From NCBI RefSeq assembly GCF_003751265.1, contig NZ_RJKN01000003.1, positions 124,001 to 188,000 on the forward strand: a stretch of 64,000 nt of DNA, read 5' to 3'. The position numbers and the translations under genes were made by a program. The stretch comes from Pseudokineococcus lusitanus. GTDB lineage: Bacteria > Actinomycetota > Actinomycetes > Actinomycetales > Quadrisphaeraceae. Below the pieces are notes generated by a model that was not told where the DNA came from, searched no databases, and saw only the letters and a list, made by a program, of their open reading frames with translations. This document shows, piece by piece, positions 12,815 through 59,389 of this stretch. Positions within the stretch are counted from its first letter, which is position 1; every line of letters begins with the position of its first letter.

Positions 12815-12878
12815 CCCGACGCGTGACCTCGTCGGGCTCCGTGAGCGCTCACGAGGGCCCACGAGGTCACACGTCGGG
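12815..12878. repeat. Inverted pair of the CGACGTGTGACC intergenic repeat, with nested palindrome
   Basis: Arms 12815-12832 and 12861-12878 (18 bases, one mismatch) enclose a perfect 14-base palindrome, CGTGAGCGCTCACG (12840-12853), which itself resembles a LacI-family operator. It occupies part of the 308-base gap between the beta-glucosidase and the protease. The rest of that gap holds only the presumed protease promoter. The arms belong to a family also found at 14286, 26704 and 35326. It could act as a terminator of the beta-glucosidase gene. Confidence 0.75.
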
Positions 12879-13072: not shown

Positions 13073-14098
13073 ATGACGCGACGCCTCGCCGCCCTCGTCC
13101 TCGGGCCGGGCATCGTCCTCGGGGCCGCGCTCGCCGCGGCCCCCGCGCAGGCCGCCCCGGCGCCCGCGGCCGCCGCGACCGCCACCGGCGCCGACACCGC
13201 CGACGAGCGCTCCGCCGTCGCCGGCTCCTGGACCGCCGAGCGCATGCGGGCGGCCACCCCGGGCTCCGTGCTCGTCGAGGACGCCGCCGCGGAGGCCGAG
13301 CGCGCCCTCGCCGCCGGCACGCCCTCCTCTGCCGTCGCCGGCGGCACCGCGGAGGTCGTCGACGGCGTCCTCGGCGCCGCCGCGGTCCCCGGTGGCCTCC
13401 TGTCCGCCCTGGCCCCCACCGCCGCCGGGGTGCCGTGGGCGGGCGGCGGCCAGGTCGTCGCCACGACCGGCAAGGTCTTCTTCACCCTCGGCGGCGAGGA
13501 CTACGTGTGCTCGGCGTCGTCCGTGGCGTCCGACAACCTCTCGACCGTGCTGACCGCCGGCCACTGCCTCTACGGCGAGGGCGCGTTCGCCTCCGACTTC
13601 GTCTTCGTGCCCGGCTACGACGAGGGGGCCGCCCCCTACGGCCGCTGGACGGCCACCGACCTCGTGACGACGCCGCAGTGGGAGGCGTCGGAGGACCTCA
13701 ACTTCGACGTCGGGTTCGCCGTCGTGGGCCGCAACGGCTCCGGGCAGGCGCTGGCCGACGTCGTGGGCGCCCAGGGCATCGGCTTCAACCAGGCGCGCGG
13801 GCAGCAGACGTCGTCCTTCGGCTACCCCGCCGCCGCGCCGTACGACGGCGAGAGCCTCCAGTACTGCGCCGGCGTCGTCCGCGACGACCTGCTCGGCAGC
13901 ACCGACCAGGGCCTCACCTGCGGCATGACCGGCGGCTCCAGCGGCGGCCCCTGGTACTCGGGCTTCGACGAGGCGACGGGCAGCGGCGTCGCCACCTCGG
14001 TCAACAGCTTCAAGTACACCGCCGACCCGACGACGATGTACGGCCCCTACCTCGGCGACCAGGCGTCGGCGACGTACGCCACGGCGGCGGCGTCCTGA
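13073..14098 (+). CDS. Secreted trypsin-like serine protease (S1/V8-like)
   Basis: A 341-residue exported protease. The signal peptide (RRLAALVLGPGIVLGAALAA, cleavage near AQAA) is followed by an Ala-rich pro-region of roughly 110 residues. The protease domain has all three catalytic residues: His in LTAGHCLYG (about 163), Asp in NFDVGFAVV (about 211) and Ser in GMTGGSSGGPW (about 288). Cysteines around the His (CSAS, GHC) and before the Ser (YCAG, TCGM) can form two disulfides. GGAAGGA precedes the ATG. It is a likely zymogen for nutrient proteolysis outside the cell. A strong hairpin follows the stop. Confidence 0.93.
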   Translation: MTRRLAALVLGPGIVLGAALAAAPAQAAPAPAAAATATGADTADERSAVAGSWTAERMRAATPGSVLVEDAAAEAERALAAGTPSSAVAGGTAEVVDGVLGAAAVPGGLLSALAPTAAGVPWAGGGQVVATTGKVFFTLGGEDYVCSASSVASDNLSTVLTAGHCLYGEGAFASDFVFVPGYDEGAAPYGRWTATDLVTTPQWEASEDLNFDVGFAVVGRNGSGQALADVVGAQGIGFNQARGQQTSSFGYPAAAPYDGESLQYCAGVVRDDLLGSTDQGLTCGMTGGSSGGPWYSGFDEATGSGVATSVNSFKYTADPTTMYGPYLGDQASATYATAAAS

Positions 14099-14158: not shown

Positions 14159-14285
14159 CGCCGGGCGCCCCGTGGACGGCGGAGCGCGAGGCGGCCGCCC
14201 GCCCGCGCGAGCTCGTCGTCGACCCGACCGACGGCGACGGCGCCGACGAGGACGACCAGGCGCCGTCCCCGCCCGCCTGACCCCT

Positions 14286-14357
14286 CCCTCGCGACGTGTG
14301 GCCATGACGCCCCTCCCGACGCTCGCGGGGGCGCGTCGTGGTCACACGTCGCGAGGG
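14286..14357. repeat. Inverted pair of the CGACGTGTGGCC intergenic repeat
   Basis: Arms 14286-14310 and 14333-14357 (25 bases, two transition mismatches) around a 22-base loop. Part of the left arm, read in reverse as GCGTCATGGCCACACGTCGC, occurs exactly at 35368. With the hairpin at 14124 it fills most of the 370-base gap 14099-14468; no further gene is supported there. Confidence 0.8.
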
Positions 14358-14468
14358 GGGGGCGGGTCGTCGGGGCCCCCCTCGCGACGACGAGGCGGTC
14401 GTGACCGATGAGGCCGGGTGCTTCTGTCGGTCTGCCCCTGCGACGAGACCCCACCCGACGGAGGACCC

Positions 14469-14777: not shown

Positions 14778-14828
14778 GAGGTGGCTGCACGAGGACGCGG
14801 TCAGACCGCGTCCTCGTGCAGCCACCTC
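14778..14828. terminator. 51-bp perfect palindrome between convergent genes (bidirectional terminator candidate)
   Basis: Arms 14778-14802 and 14804-14828 (25 bases each, perfect, one-base centre) lie between the convergent DUF4287 and TIGR03089-like genes, where a two-way terminator is expected. The core GGCTGCACGAGGACG is clearly related to the palindromes at 58004 and 59016 (GGCTCTGCACGGACG). Confidence 0.75.
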
Positions 14829-57100: not shown

Positions 57101-57930
57101 TCGGCCAGCTCCTGCCGGGCCGCGGCGAGCGCGGCCTCGACCTGGGCGCGCCGCTCCCGCAGGGCGGTGTCGTCGACGGCGCCCGAGTCGAGGACCGCCC
57201 GGACCTGCGCGAGGTCGTCGGCGAGCAGTCGCGCCCGCGCGTCCCGCGCCTCGAGCTGGACGGTGCGCGCGGTCCGCGCGGCCTGGGCCTGCCGGCCGAG
57301 GGGTCCGAGCTGGCGGCGCACCTCGGCGGTGAGGTCCTGCAGCCGCGCGAGGTTGGCCTGCATCGCGTCGATCTTGCGGAGGGCCTTCTCCTTGCGGCGC
57401 CGGTGCTTGAGGACGCCGGCCGCCTCCTCGACGAAGCCGCGCCGGTCCTCCGGCGTGGCCTGCAGGACGGCGTCGAGCTGCCCCTGCCCGACGATGACGT
57501 GCATCTCCCGGCCGATCCCGCTGTCGGACAGCAGCTCCTGGACGTCGAGCAGCCGGGCAGGAGTCCCGTTGACGGCGTACTCGCTGCCGCCGCTGCGGAA
57601 CATCGTCCGCGAGATGGTGACCTCGGTGTAGTCCAGCGGCAGCGCGCCGTCGGTGTTGTCGATGGTGAGCTGGACCTCGGCCCGCCCCAGCGGCGGCCGC
57701 CCGGGGGCGCCGTCCTTGCCGGCCGTGCCCGCGAAGATGACGTCCTGCATCGAGCCGCCGCGCAGCGTCTTCGCGCCCTGCTCGCCCATGACCCAGGCGA
57801 GGGCGTCGACGACGTTGCTCTTGCCGGACCCGTTGGGCCCGACGACGCACGTGATGCCCGGCTCCAGGCGCAGCGTCGTCGTCGACGCGAAGGACTTGAA
57901 GCCCTTCATGACGAGCGTCTTGAGGTGCAC
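54199..57930 (-). CDS. smc: Chromosome segregation protein SMC
   Basis: SMC forms the condensin ring with ScpA and ScpB. The 1243-residue protein has the N-terminal ATPase half (LVMKGFKSFASTTTLRLEPG, Walker A GPNGSGKSNVVDALAWVMG near 31), a coiled coil rich in Glu, Ala and Arg (about 170-510), the hinge (about 515-670, PGVLGPVTELLAV), the return coiled coil, and the C-terminal half with signature LLSGGERSLAAVAFLVAIF (about 1148) and Walker B PFYVLDEVEAALDD. GGGAGGA precedes the GTG. Length and plan are normal. scpA and scpB are not in the window. Confidence 0.97.
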   Translation of the reverse strand: MHLKTLVMKGFKSFASTTTLRLEPGITCVVGPNGSGKSNVVDALAWVMGEQGAKTLRGGSMQDVIFAGTAGKDGAPGRPPLGRAEVQLTIDNTDGALPLDYTEVTISRTMFRSGGSEYAVNGTPARLLDVQELLSDSGIGREMHVIVGQGQLDAVLQATPEDRRGFVEEAAGVLKHRRRKEKALRKIDAMQANLARLQDLTAEVRRQLGPLGRQAQAARTARTVQLEARDARARLLADDLAQVRAVLDSGAVDDTALRERRAQVEAALAAARQELAEVEAADAAAAPALAAAEEVLPRLQSVREQLRGTADLAAERRRLLGAPAEAPSGPDPAELGAQVERLRAQAAGLDAEVADARAALRAAEAERAGAEEALLAAERRVADLARAAADRREELARLAGSVAARRSRRDAGLAEVGRLQHSLDGARARGRDAEREHAHLETQVADVEEGEEGLDDAHEQAAEALAAVDAALEEAREDERSAERDRSSAAARVEALELGLARKDGSGALLEAGGRLPGVLGPVTELLAVRPGHEAAVAAALRGAAEGVAVESLGVAVDALRLLREDDAGTASLLVAGEEVDGARSPAVAAALAAGTEGTAPVAALDVVTAQPSVRAAVAVLLADVVVVDGLGAARAVLARTADDPAARDLVVVTADGDRLSRTGARGGSSDGAGLLQVQAAADEARAALEDAVARGERARFARQAAAGRREEAADAVAATLERLHESDARLAAVAERLGALGAAARSATAEAERLERSLAAAREGVDRDETQLAELTARHAEAEAAVASGAGGEDDGDEGATAEAAQARREELAAAARAARAAETEARLALRTGEERARGVAGRVEAAERTRRREEEARRRTAEREQVRRRDAAVAAAVEEVARAALERCATALAVATDARAAARAAREERAATSADARRRREELAAELAQLTDEVHRDEVARAQQRLRLEQLEERSLAELGTDATTLVDEMGPHVPVPVVVPDTAPPARAVTDGGEAADGEPPATTDGTDEADEPPVETRPYVRAEQEDRLRKAERALARLGRVNPLALEEFAALEERHAFLVEQLDDLTRSRQDLLAIVAEVDARVQRVFAEAYADVAAAFEHVFSRLFPGGEGRLVLTDPDDMLTTGIDVEARPAGKRVKRLQLLSGGERSLAAVAFLVAIFTARPSPFYVLDEVEAALDDTNLGRLLGVLEELRASSQLLVITHQKRTMEVADALYGVTMRGDGVTTVVSQRLREVAPA

Positions 57931-58003
57931 CGCCGTCCTCCCTCTCGCCGCCCGTGCGCCGCGGACCCTACCCGCCGCCCCCTGCCCGGCCGTGGCACCG
58001 AGC

Positions 58004-58045
58004 CTCTGCACGGGCGGCGGGATGCATCCCGCCGCCCGTGCAGAG
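58004..58045. repeat. 42-bp perfect palindrome (left copy), upstream of the DUF559-type gene
   Basis: Two 21-base arms with no loop, starting CTCTGCACGGGCGGCGGGAT. It lies in the divergent gap between smc and the DUF559-type gene, so neither neighbour needs a terminator here. The copy at 59016 differs at few positions. Confidence 0.9.
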
Positions 58046-58104
58046 CCTTCCGTCGTCCACAGGGGCACCGGCACGGGCTGCCGCGGCCGGGCACGCTCGG
58101 CGCC

Positions 58105-59013
58105 GTGCGACGGCGTCCTCTCCCCGCGACGCTCGTGCGGCGTGCGCGGGACCAGGCGGGGTGCCTCTCGAGGCCGCAGCTGCGGGCCCACGGCGTCGAC
58201 GCGGACGCCGAGCGCCTGCGCGTGGAGAGCGGCAGGTGGCAGCGCGTCGGCCCGTGCGTGGTCGTCCTGCACGGGGGGCCGCTCGGACGCGAGGCACGGC
58301 TGTGGGCGGCCGTGCTGACGACGCCGGCGGCGGCCCTCGGCGCGTGGACGGCCCTGGAGGTCCACGGCCTCCGGGGGTGGGAGCGGGACCTCGTCCACCT
58401 CGTCGCCGACGCGGGACGGGGACGACGCCGGGCGCCCGGCACCCGCCTGTCCACGACCACCCGCCCCGCGGTCGTCCGGCTCCGCCGGGGGCTGCCCGTC
58501 CACGACGTCCCCCGGGCCGCCGTCGACGCCGCCGGCTCCTGCTCCACGGTGCGGGCCGCCGGAGGGCTCGTCGCCGCCGTCGTGCAGCAGCGGCTCACGA
58601 CGACGGACCGGCTGCGGGCCGAGCTCTCCGCCGCGGGGCCGGTCCGGCACCGCGCCGCGCTCCGCTCGGTCCTCGAGGACGTCGCCGGCGGGGCGGGGTC
58701 GCTCGCCGAGGTCGACCTGGCCGTGCTCTGCCGTCGGGCGGGCCTGCCCGTGCCCCTGCGGCAGGCGGTGCGGGAGGACGCCACCGGCCGCCGTCGCTAC
58801 CTCGACGCGGAGTGGCGGCGACCGGACGGCCGGCGTGTGCTGCTCGAGGTCGACGGCGTCGGTCACCTCGAGCAGTCGCAGTGGTACGACGACCTCCTCC
58901 GCGCCGCCGAGGTGTCGGTGCCCGGCGAGGTGGTGCTGCGGCTCCCCGCCCGCGCCCTCCGCGCCGAGCCGGCGCGGGTCGTCGCGCTGCTCCGTCGCCA
59001 CCTCGTGCCGTGA
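58105..59013 (+). CDS. DUF559-type (PD-(D/E)XK-like) protein with AbiEi-like N-terminus
   Basis: The 302-residue protein begins with a winged-helix-like part (ATLVRRARDQAGCLSRPQLR), as in AbiEi-type antitoxin domains, and a middle region ALGAWTALEVHGLRGWERDL. The C-terminal domain, RRRYLDAEWRRPDGRRVLLE followed by VDGVGHLEQSQW, matches DUF559: Asp in LDAEW, then Glu-Val-Asp-Gly and His, the PD-(D/E)XK nuclease pattern related to Vsr. Such proteins are frequent, patchily spread, and uncharacterised in Actinobacteria. The GTG start follows CACGCT at seven bases; there is no Shine-Dalgarno. It is bracketed by two near-identical palindromes, a strong sign of a mobile or exchangeable unit. Confidence 0.78.
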   Translation: MRRRPLPATLVRRARDQAGCLSRPQLRAHGVDADAERLRVESGRWQRVGPCVVVLHGGPLGREARLWAAVLTTPAAALGAWTALEVHGLRGWERDLVHLVADAGRGRRRAPGTRLSTTTRPAVVRLRRGLPVHDVPRAAVDAAGSCSTVRAAGGLVAAVVQQRLTTTDRLRAELSAAGPVRHRAALRSVLEDVAGGAGSLAEVDLAVLCRRAGLPVPLRQAVREDATGRRRYLDAEWRRPDGRRVLLEVDGVGHLEQSQWYDDLLRAAEVSVPGEVVLRLPARALRAEPARVVALLRRHLVP

Positions 59014-59015
59014 GT

Positions 59016-59067
59016 CGAGGCTCTGCACGGACGGCGGGATGTATCCCGCCGTCCGTGCAGAGCCTCG
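59016..59067. repeat. 52-bp palindrome (right copy), after the DUF559-type gene
   Basis: Perfect 25-base arms (59016-59040 and 59043-59067) around GT, starting two bases after the stop of the DUF559-type gene and ending four bases before the stop of the convergent acylphosphatase gene. It could serve as a two-way terminator, but its twin at 58004 could not. Confidence 0.9.
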
Positions 59068-59071
59068 GGCC

Positions 59072-59389
59072 TCAGGCCTCGCGGAACCCCGTGGTGCCCG
59101 GGCGGGCGGGCAGCTCCTGCACCGCGACGCCGGTGACGGAGCCGGGGCGGCGGCCGGCGGCGTCGACGCCGTCGGGCGCGCGGAGCAGGGCGACGAGGGC
59201 GTCGCAGGCGGCGCGGGGGCCCTGGGCGTCGACCTCGACGCGGCCGTCGGGGAGGTTGCGCGCCGTGCCGACGAGGCCGAGCTCGAGGGAGCGGGCGCGC
59301 GTCCACCAGCGGAAGCCGACGCCCTGCACGGTGCCGCGCACGTGGGCCAGCACCCGCACGACGGCCGCGTCACCGGCGTCGGCGCTCAC
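59072..59389 (-). CDS. acyP: Acylphosphatase
   Basis: A 105-residue acylphosphatase (hydrolysis of carboxyl-phosphate bonds). It has [20 protein letters not shown] with the catalytic Arg of GVGFR, and [20 protein letters not shown] with the catalytic Asn of RNLPDG. Its length is normal. The GTG overlaps the mutM stop (GTGA). The smc–acyP–mutM–rnc order is usual in Actinobacteria. Confidence 0.95.

Follow-up and report, generated by a model that had tools for sequence, protein, structure and literature searches.

Our analysis did reveal evidence for a chromosomal unit in which the gene of a predicted nuclease fusion protein stands between two matching palindromes, with further copies of the same kind of palindrome scattered in the same genome. 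The unit was found in Pseudokineococcus lusitanus, on a stretch of 64,000 nucleotides that was analysed as a whole and is referred to here as the window. We lean, if only slightly, towards the reading that this AbiEi-nuclease binds and cuts its own palindrome and that repair copies the palindromes around the genome, which would amount to a pairing of the REP/RAYT kind built on an unrelated enzyme. The congeners compared with it are P. marinus and the uncultured Pseudokineococcus isolates 2-287 and 4-144. The features concerned are listed in window coordinates.

57998..58048 (perfect core 58004-58045), no strand: left palindrome of family A, 92% identical to the right copy, with family-A copies elsewhere in the genome
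58105..59013, + strand: AbiEi-like/DUF559-like nuclease fusion gene, GTG start and TGA stop, AlphaFold2 model with pLDDT 91.8 and pTM 0.85
58105..58686, + strand: AbiEi-antitoxin-like part, residues 1-194 (winged-helix N-terminus and AbiEi C-terminal domain), predicted from a PADLOC profile and the fold of 6y8q_A
58699..59010, + strand: Vsr/EDxHD-like (DUF559-like) nuclease domain, residues 199-302, predicted from the folds of 3r3p and 3hrl and from conservation in 36 homologs
59016..59067, no strand: right palindrome of family A, immediately 3′ of the stop codon
14778..14828, no strand: solo palindrome of family E, with the arms found around a related gene in isolate 2-287

As the first-pass annotation had described, the gene is enclosed by a perfect 42-bp palindrome (58004-58045, 21-bp arms without mismatches) and a near-identical 52-bp one (59016-59067, 25-bp arms without mismatches around a 2-nt centre), which share 92% identity over 50 nt. 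The right copy starts 3 nt past the end of the TGA stop codon (59011-59013). The gene itself runs on the + strand from GTG 58105 to TGA 59013 and encodes 302 aa, this GTG being the best start because homologs start there. Since smc starts at 57930 on the minus strand, the left palindrome lies between divergent genes, as had also been noted, and acyP (59072-59389, minus strand) follows 3′ of the right one. When the whole window was searched on both strands with up to three mismatches allowed, the consensus of the pair matched these two palindromes only, and no match was obtained in 100 dinucleotide-preserving shuffles. A promoter scan of the locus found none. Genes were called with a model trained on Pseudokineococcus that overlooked some of them, the nuclease gene of the window included; gene contexts in other genera are therefore approximate. 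Elsewhere in the window, two long imperfect palindromes that are partly alike (12815-12878 and 14281-14362, pair score 27) flank an unrelated ORF of 341 aa (13073-14098) with a signal-peptide-like start.

The protein is predicted to consist of an AbiEi-antitoxin-like half and a Vsr/EDxHD homing-endonuclease-like (DUF559) half. In the AlphaFold2 model, made from 36 aligned sequences (mean pLDDT 91.8, pTM 0.85), residues 2-194 resemble the AbiEi antitoxin 6y8q_A at Z 12.9, with an rmsd of 4.8 across 183 residues, and, more weakly, Rv2827c (1zel, Z 9.0). Two structures lead the matches to residues 199-302: the catalytic domain of the homing endonuclease I-Bth0305I (3r3p) at Z 10.6, with an rmsd of 2.6 across 92 residues, and 3hrl, an endonuclease-like protein, at Z 10.1. 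Other PD-(D/E)XK folds such as TnsA, Hjc and XisH rank below them. A sequence search of solved structures gave a weak hit to 3hrl alone (E 0.032). The PADLOC AbiEi model matched residues 10-177 of the window protein (E 2e-14), and AbiEi profile models matched 34 of the 36 aligned homologs. The gene had been called DUF559-type and nuclease-like; the nuclease fold is supported by the matches to 3r3p and 3hrl, but the DUF559 label did not hold for the window protein, for which the Pfam DUF559 model did not reach E 0.1, and the same model matched 9 of the 36 homologs. E202, E248, H254 and R266 are invariant across the 36 homologs and D234, D250 and D263 almost so; these seven we take, by analogy with the fold, to be the putative catalytic residues. 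With dN/dS values of 0.09-0.35 in six species pairs, the gene is therefore under purifying selection.

Homologs of this protein are widespread, the family being matched by profile at E 1e-10 or better in 177 of 248 genomes of one order, not all of them with palindromes. Among the 110 distinct homolog loci that have both flanks, 54 show a matched palindrome pair (local score of at least 22) and the other 56, by the same criteria, do not; the remaining four of 114 distinct loci are truncated by contig ends and were set aside. The four sources of homologs contributed 15/28, 13/27, 8/15 and 18/40 pairs, the last of these being hand-picked mid-range matches from the list of the 248-genome profile search, and nine of 30 loci from that list were excluded as the same places as loci in the first homolog set. 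The palindromes flanking the relatives' genes are mostly lineage-specific sequences and unlike those of the window. Canonical genes with DUF559 as best Pfam match were considered as carriers of the trait and rejected, the matched pair occurring at 4 of 30 such loci by a looser criterion.

For comparison, a set of 475 genes, each coding for 200-420 aa and drawn from three genomes of one genus, Pseudokineococcus, was inspected at a score of at least 20 (against 22 for the homologs), and a pair was found around five of them, two of which are family genes, leaving three non-family genes. Among pairs of neighbouring palindromes spaced 700-1600 bp apart, the top scores in 400 kb of the P. lusitanus genome belonged to two family units (n=150) and the top score in 400 kb of isolate 4-144 to one (n=89). 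Palindromes as such are common, with 60 whose net arm is at least 14 per 400 kb examined in P. lusitanus, many of which are probably terminators; it is the matched pair, rather than the palindrome as such, that is the unusual feature. Pseudokineococcus genomes carry three to five divergent paralogs of the gene, and no near-identical copies were seen in them. Two family genes stand in tandem, with palindromes of two related types between them, both in isolate 2-287 (contig C11, about 102-105 kb) and in P. marinus (contig C63). The palindrome types of the genus look modular: the sister clades B/E and F/G have the outer ends in common, and C/D the inner core.

Cognate palindromes are not confined to the flanks of the gene but lie scattered in eight of the ten genomes examined. 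A search of the P. lusitanus genome and its relatives detected 10 family-A palindromes in P. lusitanus and four in isolate 4-144, whose A unit occupies the same site; two congeners without the A unit contained none, and a control pattern gave none either. These counts, like those that follow, include the copies beside the gene, and the diverged copies of isolate 4-144 are caught by a looser pattern but missed by one with exact 8-bp ends. Four Gordonia genomes contained 13, 8, 7 and 11 copies, every one of 50 bp, and three Knoellia genomes 14, 11 and 2 copies, which measure 46-47 bp, the two in K. flava both being at the unit. The Knoellia pattern had no copy in K. koreensis, whose own palindrome differs.

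Solo copies lie mostly within 40 bp of the 3′ end of a gene (6 of 8 in P. lusitanus and 9 of 10 in Knoellia, by approximate gene calls), and most of those in P. lusitanus do not adjoin another family gene. The 51-bp solo at 14778-14828 of the window sits between convergent ORFs, and no gene of exactly that palindrome type was seen among the P. lusitanus family genes. In isolate 2-287, D-type solos occur in the stretches read, and a D-flanked gene was not among the matches. Two solos about 300 bp apart on P. lusitanus contig C8 (locus positions 1490 and 1798) have the same outer ends and different cores. At the starts of contigs C6 and C8, family-A palindromes lie near the contig ends beside similar protein ends, probably a single repeated region split by assembly.

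Comparisons between species show that the palindromes and the orientation of the unit turn over, and not its position. In the smc-acyP interval the unit is missing from most relatives: smc was found in 12 of 13 family genomes searched, and the 1.5 kb upstream of it contain the unit in two of these and lack it in ten. In P. marinus and isolate 2-287 the interval is occupied by a different gene of 205-210 aa, whose product looks membrane-bound or secreted. The orthologue of isolate 4-144 at this site shows an apparent frame change near the C-terminus, and this copy may be decaying. Across the family, 19 groups of same-site units were recognised in our own grouping, and units mostly keep their sites within genera. 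A second P. lusitanus site, between convergent genes, holds a unit with G palindromes, while orthologous units with F palindromes occupy it in P. marinus and isolate 2-287, and isolate 4-144 has a solo only, of a third type, D. The first-pass annotation had proposed a small self-moving cassette of about 1.06 kb; this was not borne out, since units mostly stay at fixed sites within genera and the protein was found in none of 72,556 plasmid records. On these two grounds, transposition of the whole unit was rejected as the main mode. Phage records gave one match only, a distant one.

Solos are gained and lost between species. A solo of isolate 4-144 is lacking at the corresponding place in P. lusitanus, and one in K. 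subterranea, immediately 3′ of a stop codon, corresponds to an empty place in Knoellia sp. Soil729. One further solo site is filled in both of these Knoellia genomes, each time with the palindrome type of the genome's own unit (inner-part identity to the own unit of 0.83 versus 0.40 in K. subterranea and of 0.87 versus 0.57 in Soil729). Of the K. subterranea solos sampled, three of five best match the own unit and one matches the Soil729 type. One Gordonia solo is common to all four species, and movement there can therefore be slow. Alignments of solos with empty sites, whose flanks have diverged, gave no clear target-site duplication.

The two flanking palindromes of a unit also change together. 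Within a genome, left and right copies are on average 0.863 alike, against 0.654 between species at the same site, and this held in 20 of 20 pairs, a comparison biased toward within-genome likeness since it includes only units with a qualifying pair and uses the best pair of each (ten loci without one, L082, L086, L088, L126, L128, L135, L298, L308, L314 and L327, were dropped). The gene is inverted in 3 of the 19 same-site groups, and in two of these the changeover falls at the palindromes: between G. aichiensis and G. otitidis, and between K. flava and both Soil729 and K. subterranea, the flanks are collinear and the gene is opposite. In the remaining group, Cellulosimicrobium/Oerskovia versus Cellulomonas fimi/Actinotalea, palindromes at the inverted copies are weak or missing. 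Covariation between the arms, assessed on copies inside the loci retrieved, was strong in Knoellia (41 compensatory cells against a shuffle maximum of 26) and absent in Gordonia (paired 0.807 versus 0.823 shuffled), and conservation of the hairpin as such is therefore not a general result.

The likeness to REP/REPIN-RAYT units that had been pointed out, with a nuclease in place of the transposase, stands as far as anatomy is concerned, including the copies scattered in the same genome. REPtrons combine REP/REPIN palindromes with the gene of TnpA-REP (RAYT), an HUH/tyrosine transposase (PMC8266576, PMC3733652). The two systems have in common a gene flanked by a palindrome kind that is scattered, mostly between genes, in its own genome, a palindrome type that tracks the gene lineage, and few gene copies that are chromosomal and inherited in a housekeeping-like manner, although Pseudokineococcus has several divergent paralogs. 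The unit differs in its protein, which is AbiEi-like with a Vsr/EDxHD-like nuclease and no HUH/tyrosine transposase; in its palindromes, which are nearly symmetric, 42-55 bp long, without a GTAG tag at the foot in the window copies and present in about ten copies rather than the hundreds of REP; and in flanking copies that change jointly around a gene that inverts. The Y1 HUH transposase domain PF01797 was detected in 0 of 4 Pseudokineococcus genomes (a positive control matched 5 of 14 known genomes), by which palindromes driven by a RAYT were rejected as an explanation, and neither GTAG nor CTAC is found at the feet of the two window palindromes. With the HUH transposase missing, and the GTAG tag missing from the window copies, the unit is not a member of the REPtrons. 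TIRtrons/TIRYT (PMC3733652) likewise place a gene between long repeats that form small dispersed families, but encode tyrosine transposases.

The protein itself suggests other relatives. EDxHD homing endonucleases (I-Bth0305I) and the Vsr/DUF559 nuclease group have the same catalytic-domain fold as well as a separate DNA-binding part and a long target suited to a dimer, to which the palindrome would be the candidate counterpart. Unlike EDxHD homing endonucleases, the unit's gene lies outside any intron, intein or phage, its DNA-binding half is AbiEi-like, and its candidate target would be the element's own palindrome. The resemblance to type IV antitoxins (AbiEi of S. agalactiae, Rv2827c) lies in the fold of residues 2-194 and in a paired inverted-repeat geometry of about 23 bp (PMC7319586), from which binding by the window protein may be supposed; the unit departs from AbiEi in its fused nuclease, in the second palindrome on the downstream side and in the further palindrome copies at other places.

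On this basis the preferred reading, cutting of the palindrome by the protein followed by repair, can be laid out in steps. Two protomers would bind the two arms of 21-25 bp through their AbiEi-like halves, in the way in which AbiEi occupies its paired operator repeats of 23 bp. This would place two nuclease domains of the Vsr/EDxHD-like kind on the DNA, where they would cut at or near the palindrome. Two protomers per palindrome and the cutting are inferred from the geometry of AbiEi, whose binding site is a pair of 23-bp inverted repeats separated by 3 bp (PMC7319586) and thus matches these palindromes in size, and from I-Bth0305I, an EDxHD enzyme with a target nearly 60 bp long on which it dimerises (PMC3943268). 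Repair of the cut from another genomic copy would keep both flanking palindromes alike, would convert or add solo palindromes elsewhere, chiefly at gene ends, and would occasionally flip or delete the gene between the palindromes. Against this reading it has to be said that inversions could result from homologous recombination or template switching by themselves, that half of the homologs have no pair by the criteria used, and that Gordonia solos are old. The absence of arm covariation in Gordonia, the lack of solos in K. flava, the mixed types of the K. subterranea solos, the D-type solos of isolate 2-287, the inversion group with weak or missing palindromes, the want of a clear target-site duplication and the frame change in isolate 4-144 also weigh against it.

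Palindromic repeats are prone to recombination, which speaks for an alternative in which the protein is an autoregulated AbiEi-like repressor with the palindromes as its operators, the accessory nuclease does not act on them, and inversion and likeness arise passively when the long palindromes undergo homologous recombination or template switching. The upstream palindrome does lie 52-120 bp ahead of the start in many units, and AbiEi autoregulates via paired upstream inverted repeats (PMC7319586). An operator leaves unexplained, however, why a matched palindrome lies at or after the stop codon, why cognate copies lie mostly at the 3′ ends of unrelated genes and why the type switched at one same-site Knoellia solo, and we regard this alternative as unlikely. 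A defence nuclease of restriction-like type, merely controlled or marked by the palindromes, seems less likely again. It would agree with the matches to PADLOC AbiEi models and with a nuclease fold common to restriction and repair enzymes, but it gives no place to the scattered palindromes, and mobile defence islands would not be expected to show fixed chromosomal sites within genera, no plasmid match and a single, distant phage match. Moreover, no AbiEii (DUF1814) toxin gene stands beside the unit at the window locus, where the neighbours are smc and acyP; this locus is therefore not an AbiE toxin-antitoxin operon, a candidate that was rejected on that ground.

That termination cannot explain both palindromes had been claimed from the position of the left copy between divergent genes, a position that was confirmed. 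Ordinary bidirectional terminators flanking the gene by chance would fit the abundance of palindromes in the genome, the closeness of solos to gene ends and what seems to be a different hairpin in the other species at one Knoellia site. The palindromes lack a T-tract, though, and a scan of 57900-59150 found no terminator-like sites; matched pairs are rare around other genes (the three non-family genes in 475), and both copies change in concert. Simple terminators were accordingly rejected, and as an account of the unit they are very improbable. The solos, however, lie mostly just 3′ of genes, so that a side-role in termination is conceivable, and the refuting condition that the first-pass annotation had set for a mobile unit (the same gene in every relative, and palindromes only after genes) is thereby escaped by half only. 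Still a little less credible is an ordinary insertion sequence whose ends are unusual and which transposes as a whole. Terminal repeats, a size of about 1.06 kb and presence or absence at smc-acyP between species would suit it, but same-site inheritance in 19 groups, divergent paralogs in place of near-identical copies in Pseudokineococcus, low dN/dS and the want of a plasmid match and of a Y1 transposase all argue against it.

Returning to binding, cutting and repair of the palindrome, a further and more tentative step, to which we give somewhat less than even credence, would be to assign the unit to a new class of elements, selfish or domesticated, with "palindrome homing", whose mobile part is the bare palindrome of about 50 bp, serving at once as binding site, cut site and repair template. 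An AbiEi-derived reader with an EDxHD-like nuclease would then replace older palindromes by its own type and impose that type on some sites at gene ends as well; the reader would drift together with its palindrome, giving rise to lineage-specific palindromes, with the gene itself invertible. In an open-access library, searches on DUF559 or AbiEi with palindromes and on REP-like systems in Actinobacteria turned up no description of the unit, subscription papers and bioRxiv preprints being largely outside their scope; a unit with its own palindromes that would copy them around is thus apparently previously unreported.

The spread of REP-like palindromes is a long-standing question that has been studied nearly always via HUH transposases, and the unit looks like an independent solution to it with a different type of enzyme. 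It offers a testable function for a large set of genes now annotated as AbiEi-like or DUF559, and suggests a new class of enzymes reading palindromes of about 50 bp, with a possible use in genome tools. The lineage-specific units would also provide natural pairs of protein and site for studies on the co-evolution of a DNA reader with the site that it reads.
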